From: Methanogenium cariaci JCM 10550
GTDB lineage: Archaea > Halobacteriota > Methanomicrobia > Methanomicrobiales > Methanomicrobiaceae
DNA: 64,000 nt
Assembly: GCF_001315945.1 (NCBI RefSeq)
Contig: NZ_BBBG01000005.1
Span: 1 to 64,000 of the forward strand
Direction: 5' to 3'
Shown here: piece after piece, positions 15,438 through 18,746 of the stretch
How positions within the stretch are numbered: the first letter of the stretch is position 1
How the letters are laid out: the number at the start of each line of letters is the position of its first letter
Program-made: the position numbers and the translations under genes
The notes under the pieces: generated by a model
The model's database searches: none
What the model was told of the DNA's origin: nothing
Seen by the model: only the letters and a program-made list of their open reading frames with translations

Positions 15438-15509
15438 AGCCTCAGGAGGGAGTTGAACCCCCGACCTGCTGATTACAAATCAGCCGCTATACCACTAAGC
15501 CACTGAGGC
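15438..15509 (-). tRNA. tRNA-Thr (anticodon TGT)
   Basis: The reverse complement folds as a cloverleaf: acceptor GCCTCAG/CTGAGGC, a D-arm with AGTGGTATAGC, anticodon stem GCTGA/TCAGC around loop TTTGTAA (anticodon TGT), and a T-arm with GGTTCAACTCC. No intron is present and CCA is not encoded. It is the downstream member, in transcription order, of a tandem pair of the same isoacceptor. Confidence 0.95.
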
Positions 15510-15723
15510 GCTCTACCCTATTTGTGCTCAGGGGGTAAAAAAGATGGCGATATGATCTGGTTACCCGTATGAGTCTGAGATAAAAAGAATCCAAAAAGAA
15601 CCGAAGCCTCAGGAAGGAGTCGAACCTTCGACCTGCTGATTACAAATCAACCGCTATTCCACTAAGCCACTGAGGCGCCCATTTCAATCGGCTCTCAGGG
15701 GGTAAAGAATGTGGCGATATGAT
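15439..15723 (-). repeat. 167-bp tandem duplication carrying tRNA-Thr and its promoter region
   Basis: The tRNA bodies (from 15439 and 15606) and the sequence upstream of each in the direction of transcription repeat at the same 167-base offset. The upstream block, CTCAGGGGGTAAA followed by TGGCGATATGAT, is at 15527-15556 and 15694-15723. Conservation of this block, against divergence of the sequence between, suggests it contains promoter elements. Confidence 0.75.
15605..15676 (-). tRNA. tRNA-Thr (anticodon TGT), second copy
   Basis: A second threonine tRNA with the same anticodon loop TTTGTAA and the same acceptor stem. It differs at several positions (GTTGA/TCAGC anticodon stem with one G-U pair, GGTTCGACTCC T-arm). 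It lies exactly 167 bases from the first copy and shares its flanking sequence, so one arose by tandem duplication. Confidence 0.95.
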
Positions 15724-15807: not shown

Positions 15808-17064
15808 ATGGCACATCTGACTGTAGATATCGGAGGCAGACCCGGTCTGGACTGCCGGGGGGGCTTCTGTAAATACTGTTACTTCAAGGGGGGGTTCGCG
15901 AAGAAGAGGAACCCGAACCCCTGGCTGTAAATACTGCCTGCCGTTCGCTGTTGGGTGTGATTATTGCACCAATTTTGTCCGCGAACGCTACACCGGGTTC
16001 ATGGATCTCCGGGATGTGGCAAATGATGTACTCGGCAACCTGCAGCTGATGGACGGCAACCTGGACCGGATCACAATATCCGGCGGCGGCGACCCGTCCT
16101 GTTACCCGGAATTCGAAGATCTGATGGATCTCCTAGGCAGCATGGGGGGGGTGCCCATCCATATCGGATACACCAGTGGGAAAGGGTTTGATGACCCTGC
16201 CCTTGCCGACCGGATGGTGGAACAGGGCCTCTCTGAAGTCTCATTCACCATCTTCTCGGTAAACCCGGAACTCCGCCGCGAATGGATGGGAGACCAGACA
16301 CCGGAGGCGTCCCTTGCGGTACTGGGAAAACTTTGCCAGAAAATTGATGTCTATGCCGCAGCGCTCGTCATCCCCCCCGGTGTCAATGACGGCGAGGAAC
16401 TGGAACGCACCTGTAAATGGCTGGAGGACAGGGGGGGTGCAAAAGGCCTCATCCTCATGCGGTTTGCGAACCGGGAGGAACAGGGACTGATTCTCAAAAA
16501 CGGCCCCGTCGTCAAAGGCCAGCGGGTGCAGACCGTATCGGCGTTCCGTGACATGGTCACCGACATCAATGAACGCTACAATCTGCGCATCAATGGCACT
16601 CCCCCCCTCTGGGATCCGACCCTTGGGTCACCGTTTGCCATCCTCAACGAACCCGACCTTCTGGAAAAACTCCCGCGGGTAAAAAAACGGGCAAGCCTCA
16701 TCTCCGGCGCCATCGCTGCCCGCTATGTGCAGGAAGTGCTTGATGCCTGTGGCAACCAGTCCTGGGTGGCCAGCCCGAAAAAAGAGATTGCGTGTCTCAT
16801 CACCCGTGACGACCTGAAAGAGATTGACCTCTCCACTCTGGAAAAGGTCGTCATCATACCGGGCCGCTCATTCGTCCATGAAAAGGAGGCGGCAGATATA
16901 CTCTCGGCAGACGGGGGGGTGAGACGGACGATCATCCGGGGGGGCCTGACACCCTCACCGCCGATGCGGAGACCTCCATGGGCATGACCCGCGATGAGGT
17001 GCTCCAGATGGAGATCGACGGGTTCTCCTCCCTCATCCACCTCATCAACCTGAACGGAATCTGA
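15808..17064 (+). CDS. mmp10: Methanogenesis marker 10, McrA arginine C-methylating radical SAM protein
   Basis: Mmp10 is the B12-dependent radical SAM enzyme that methylates an arginine carbon in McrA. Recognised by the N-terminus [15 protein letters not shown], the Cys-rich CKYCYFKG and [11 protein letters not shown], and [15 protein letters not shown]. The frame breaks near 15920 and again at 16936-16975; joined, it has about 418 residues and ends with [15 protein letters not shown]. The expected radical SAM spacing CX3CX2C reads CX4CX2C because a seven-G run inserts a glycine in CRGGFCKYC. With ycaO 4 kb away, this is the second McrA modification gene of the window. Confidence 0.92.
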
Positions 17065-17544: not shown

Positions 17545-18746
17545 ATGAATCACCGGTACTCAGAGAGGATCTGTTCCACACAGAAATCCTTTATCCGTGA
17601 GATACTGAAGGTCACCGCAGATCCGGAGATCATCTCCTTTGCAGGCGGCCTTCCCAATCCCAATCTCATCGACGATGAGGGAATACAGAAAGCTGCAGCA
17701 GCACTACTGAAAGAGGACGGCAAGACCGCACTCCAGTACTCGACCACCGAAGGACACCCTCCCCCCCTGCGGGAATGGATTGCAGAACGCTACCGCACCC
17801 GCTACGGACTCTCCGTAAGCGCGGATCAAATTCTGATCACAAACGGCTCCCAGCAGTGTCTGGACCTCATCGGCAAGGTCTACCTTGATACCGGCGATTC
17901 GGTCATTGTTGAAGACCCCCCCGGATATCTGGGTGCCATCCAGTCGTTCTCTATGTTTCAGCCGGAATTCCTTTCGGTTCCCCTGAATGAGGAAGGGCCT
18001 GACCTGGCGTGCCTCACGAATGTCCTTGAGACGTCATCCGCCAAGTTCATGTACGGCATTCCGAACTCGCAGAACCCCCCTCCGGTATCACCTACTCGGA
18101 GAACCGGCGACGTGATCTCGCGGCCATCCTCTGTGAAAACGACATGCCGTTTGTGGAGGACGATGCATATGGGGAGCTTCAGTTTGACGGCGTCACAAGA
18201 AAACCGGTCAGTGCGTATATGGAAGGCGAAGGTATTCTGACGGGATCGTTTTCCAAGATCTTCTCGCCCGGCATGCGGATGGGATGGGTCTGTGCCCCCC
18301 CCAAAGAGGTGATGGAAAAGACCCTCATCGCAAAGCAGGCATCTGACCTGCACTCAAACTACCTGTGCCAGCGTATCCTGTCAAAATATCTGGAAACGAA
18401 TGACATTGACGCCCATATCGCAGTTATAAACGAAGAGTACCGGAAACGTGCCGAGTGGATGGTCTCACAGATGGAGAAGTGCTTCCCGGACGATGTGCAC
18501 TTCACCCGGCCGACCGGCGGGATGTTTATCTGGCTGACGCTTCCGGAAGGTGTCTCCTCAGGTGCACTCTTTGAAGCCGCCCTGAAACGCAAGGTGGCCA
18601 TCCTGCCGGGCACGCCGTTCTATGCAGATGGCGGCGGTGACTCGACAGCGAGGATTAATTTCTCCAATGCGGACAAAGAGGATATTCTGGCAGGCATTGA
18701 GATTGTTGCCGAAGTGCTCGAAGAAATCCGCAGCACTCCTCAATAA
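17545..18746 (+). CDS. PLP-dependent aminotransferase, class I/II
   Basis: A fold-type I aminotransferase of the 2-aminoadipate/aromatic aminotransferase (LysN/AroH-like) group. Visible landmarks are FAGGLPNP near residue 32, TNGSQQCLDL for cofactor binding, the conserved PNSQNPSG segment, and the Schiff-base lysine in GSFSKIFSPGMRMGW. The frame breaks at the six-C run at 18074, where NPSG requires four C's; joined length is about 400 residues. The substrate cannot be deduced, and branched-chain, aromatic or aminoadipate activity are all possible. It is a single gene with no operon partner. Confidence 0.88.

Follow-up and report, generated by a model that had tools for sequence, protein, structure and literature searches.

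The CX4CX2C spacing encoded by the deposited mmp10 gene of Methanogenium cariaci JCM 10550 is almost certainly absent from the organism, and is best explained as a homopolymer over-call made during genome sequencing or assembly. The extra glycine that creates it is not a real feature of Mmp10; it is the mildest damage in a gene whose frame is broken by like errors, and the defect extends beyond the motif. Runs of G or C longer than those of congeners were found in mmp10, in the rest of the window (the whole stretch of 64,000 nucleotides that was analysed) and in ribosomal RNA, and the error presumably lies in base calling or consensus, not in the DNA. The gene and its motif are placed as follows:

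15808 to 17064, forward strand: mmp10 (TIGR03278), predicted to encode the methyl-coenzyme M reductase arginine methyltransferase; single copy, with the deposited gene interrupted by indels at G/C runs.
15853 to 15879, forward strand: radical SAM cysteine motif, C-R-G-G-F-C-K-Y-C (CX4CX2C), written C-R/Q-G-F-C-x-Y-C in all relatives examined.

In a genome search, the TIGR03278 profile (NCBIfam) covered the whole of mmp10, which starts at the ATG at 15808 and has its stop, in the last frame, at 17062-17064, as three out-of-register pieces. The largest piece scored 436.5 bits against a curated cut-off of 350, and the gene's 328-aa piece, which scores above the cut-off, is 88-92% identical to congeners. 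The same search found no second, intact mmp10 elsewhere in the genome, leaving the window copy as the only Mmp10. Rather than one open frame of about 411 residues, the gene consists of three pieces in two frames: the frame first breaks at the second seven-G run (15888-15894), followed by a stop at 15928-15930, and breaks again near 16938-16944. It is lost soon after the radical SAM motif and upstream of the iron-loop cysteines, all four of which (CX2CX6CX2C) are present downstream of 15921, in a frame that differs from that of the motif.

The first-pass annotation had read C-R-G-G-F-C-K-Y-C at this place, with four residues between the first two cysteines, and the codons confirm it: TGC (15853-55), CGG (15856-58), GGG (15859-61), GGC (15862-64), TTC, TGT (15868-70), AAA, TAC and TGT (15877-79), with the local frame open across the motif. 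It had also assigned the extra residue to a seven-G run, and exactly seven Gs stand at 15857-15863; the frame breaks farther downstream had gone unmentioned there. As deposited, the protein departs from the CX3CX2C motif of Mmp10, in which C15, C19 and C22 of the solved structure are the cluster ligands, described by the authors as strictly conserved in 258 homologues (PMC8828468). That CX3CX2C is the normal spacing, as had been proposed, holds for the solved Methanosarcina enzyme and for 23 of the 23 distinct Mmp10 genes read, all with C-(R/Q)-G-F-C-x-Y-C (21 distinct genes from 22 loci, one gene being represented twice, plus two more, ranging from the same genus to the same order); the named relatives compared were Methanogenium species and MAGs. 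The solved M. acetivorans Mmp10 aligns gap-free over the radical SAM motif, and the comparison with relatives' Mmp10 that had been suggested as a check yielded CX4CX2C in no relative read. A TIGR03278 match was found in 39 of the 40 genomes searched, source genome included, and 38 exceed the family cut-off; none of the relatives' above-cut-off matches in this search contains an internal stop.

Aligned against six congeners and two representatives of a second genus within the family, mmp10 shows nine indels, namely insertions at 8/8 G/C runs of 7-8 bases and one missing base, and the rest of the gene aligns gap-free with congeners. Relative to congeners, the insertions are of three bases at six runs and of two bases at two; the three-base events add glycine or proline, and the remaining indels break the frame:

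15857 to 15863, forward strand: seven-G run, +3 bases relative to congeners; gives the extra motif glycine.
15888 to 15894, forward strand: seven-G run, +2 bases relative to congeners; frame shift.
15918 to 15924, forward strand: site after CCCC at 15918, one base shorter than in all relatives, with GG against GGG in most congeners.
16144 to 16151, forward strand: eight-G run, +3 bases relative to congeners; extra residue (SMGGVP).
16372 to 16378, forward strand: seven-C run, +3 bases relative to congeners; extra proline (IPPGVND).
16431 to 16437, forward strand: seven-G run, +3 bases relative to congeners; extra glycine.
16601 to 16607, forward strand: seven-C run, +3 bases relative to congeners; extra proline (GTPPLWD).
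16913 to 16919, forward strand: seven-G run, +3 bases relative to congeners; extra glycine.
16938 to 16944, forward strand: seven-G run, +2 bases relative to congeners; frame shift that puts the last ~40 residues in another frame.

The one-base loss at 15918-15924 is the second frame shift in the gene, and the iron-loop cysteines are read after it. Compared with Mmp10 of M. acetivorans (MA4551; PDB 7QBS-7QBV), the deposited gene shares family, motif order (radical SAM cysteines, four-cysteine iron loop, GYTSGKGF region) and single copy, but only this assembly has the extra glycine in the radical SAM motif, the other extra glycines and prolines, and the frame breaks. All of these differences fall at over-long G/C runs, save the single-base loss in GGG. 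CX4CX2C is read as a data error, its extra residue coinciding with an over-called run.

The window holds 227 G/C runs of at least 7 bases where about 15 are expected under a first-order Markov model trained on its sequence, so the seven-G run in mmp10 is typical of the assembly and not special to that gene. G/C run lengths are bimodal (105 runs of 4 bases, 33 of 5, 12 of 6, 183 of 7 and 44 of 8, none longer): G/C counts drop from length 3 to 6 and then jump at 7, whereas A/T counts fall smoothly. Other contigs of the assembly repeat this pattern, whereas one congener gave a smooth curve. Pattern searches over the whole genome counted 8,110 exact (isolated) 7-base G/C runs. Six congeners have 87-186 each, and none of the phylum's 393 other genomes has more than 905, making this genome the extreme outlier among 394. 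The two next-highest genomes (G254 and G237) were considered as cases of the same error and rejected, the short stretches sampled having ordinary falling run-length curves.

When window runs were paired with those of relatives, seven-base runs corresponded to 4 bases in the relative in 14 of 15 cases and eight-base runs to five bases in three of four. GGG and CCC agreed with relatives in 210/212 cases and A/T runs in 280/282, and both classes are essentially unaffected. About 40% of the 4-5 base G/C runs keep their normal length, and no clear flanking-base rule separating lengthened from normal runs emerged from the comparison of window runs with relatives. Most true G/C runs of at least 4 bases (more than half) would have been written as seven or eight letters, amounting to thousands of over-calls. 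A 4-run written as 7 would gain three bases, and the protein a glycine (G run) or a proline (C run); a 5-run written as 7 would gain two bases, and the frame would be lost. The real gene would encode an ordinary CX3CX2C Mmp10. Completeness is 59% for the 2.69 Mb assembly against 99% for two single-contig congeners, as expected with many genes frameshifted.

The same insertions were found in ribosomal RNA:

182 to 1669 of L041, contig C40: 16S rRNA gene, with 7 spurious G/C-run insertions.
1501 to 4345 of L042, contig C40: 23S rRNA gene, with 15 spurious G/C-run insertions.

In the single 16S gene all seven insertions are of three bases, at GGGG, CCCC or GGGGG, and there are 0 substitutions at the 1,424 columns conserved in four relatives. 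In the 23S gene, each of the 15 lengthens a G/C run by 1-3 bases, and one lies in CTACCCCGGGGATAA, a segment next to the peptidyl-transferase centre. The insertions sit at positions identical across all relatives compared, and since a cell could hardly live with them in 16S and 23S, it is the sequence and not the organism that appears to be wrong. Additions are very often exactly three bases, rRNA included, which is unusual for ordinary homopolymer noise. Because exact three-base additions are also common in rRNA, and additions of one, two and three bases are mixed there, their frequency in genes does not reflect codon-level selection or selection for reading frame; the called run length simply piles up near seven. 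The artefact reading adopted in the first-pass annotation is therefore borne out by CX3CX2C in relatives, by the genome-wide over-call and by the insertions in rRNA.

Errors of homopolymer length in sequencing or assembly are known from flow- and pore-based platforms. The present case resembles them in that indels are confined to homopolymers, rRNA and coding sequence are affected alike, and completeness is low through frameshifts. However, only G/C runs are involved here, the effect sets in sharply at four bases, and the lengths as called pile up at 7-8, whereas the known errors scatter by one base.

The same signature has been published. A 2021 survey of archaeal G-quadruplexes puts the GnNiGn repeats of M. 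cariaci JCM 10550 at about 100 and describes repeats of this kind in two unrelated archaea, both JCM strains, with counts of up to several hundred among the three (PMC8044849). In the genome analysed here, G7-N(1-2)-G7 matched 118 times, against 0 in six congeners; the published repeats have genus and signature in common with it. The survey's authors left these repeats out for having only two G runs, and its accessible sections do not describe them as an artefact (PMC8044849). The GnNiGn patterns of three distant JCM archaea are probably the same assembly error and not biology, and we infer that a shared pipeline is the likely cause across JCM assemblies; no paper connecting homopolymer error in JCM assemblies with a platform turned up in a literature search.

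A real seven-G run, with mmp10 as a true pseudogene or as a gene under phase variation through slippage of its G runs, is very improbable; G runs do drive such variation in some bacteria. Loss would be tolerable, given that strains of Methanosarcina acetivorans and Methanococcus maripaludis from which mmp10 has been deleted are viable but show defects in growth or under stress (PMC7581889), and these strains also weaken the earlier point that an inactive Mmp10 would hardly persist in a methanogen. However, run lengthening is genome-wide, the same insertions are observed in both of the assembly's rRNAs, and mmp10, indels aside, looks conserved, as the identity and family score of the 328-aa piece attest. 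Even less credence is due to a working Mmp10 whose cluster loop is CX4CX2C: the motif does lie in a locally open frame, but the spacing occurs in no relative read, the three ligands are strictly conserved (PMC8828468), and the frame is lost ahead of the iron-loop cysteines. Equally negligible is the chance of a real Mmp10 with such a loop in an organism with truly expanded G/C runs, and the suggestion of an unusual cluster-binding loop, made earlier in case the residue were real, does not survive. Least credible of all is a biological expansion of G/C runs across the genome, such as a mutator state that inserts GGG/CCC triplets might produce; it would suit a commonest change of exactly three bases but not the additions of one and two, the presumably lethal insertions at rRNA positions identical in all compared relatives, or the same signature in two unrelated archaea from the same culture collection's assemblies (PMC8044849).

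With homopolymer over-calling as the preferred reading, Mmp10 biology is unchanged by the extra glycine, and the assembly is unfit for claims about motifs, indels, frameshifts, pseudogenes or G-quadruplexes. The published survey was obliged to discard hundreds of G-run repeats matching the same error in three JCM assemblies (PMC8044849). Run-length histograms together with rRNA offer a quick test for genomes with such errors. For this record, 16S identity to relatives is understated by 21 gap positions.

Elsewhere in the assembly, about 16 consecutive Gs stand near 253499 of one contig (G000:C1), well above the 7-8 typical of it. Within the window, a PLP aminotransferase (MocR/PdxR-like domain) at 17545-18746 is divided between two overlapping ORFs; C runs encode extra prolines in the first of them (EGHPPPLREW, NSQNPPPVS), which suggests that the same run error split the gene. 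Upstream of mmp10, two tandem tRNA-Thr(TGT) genes lie on the reverse strand at 15438-15509 and 15605-15676, and a similar sequence occurs twice at the matching place in a congener (locus L038).
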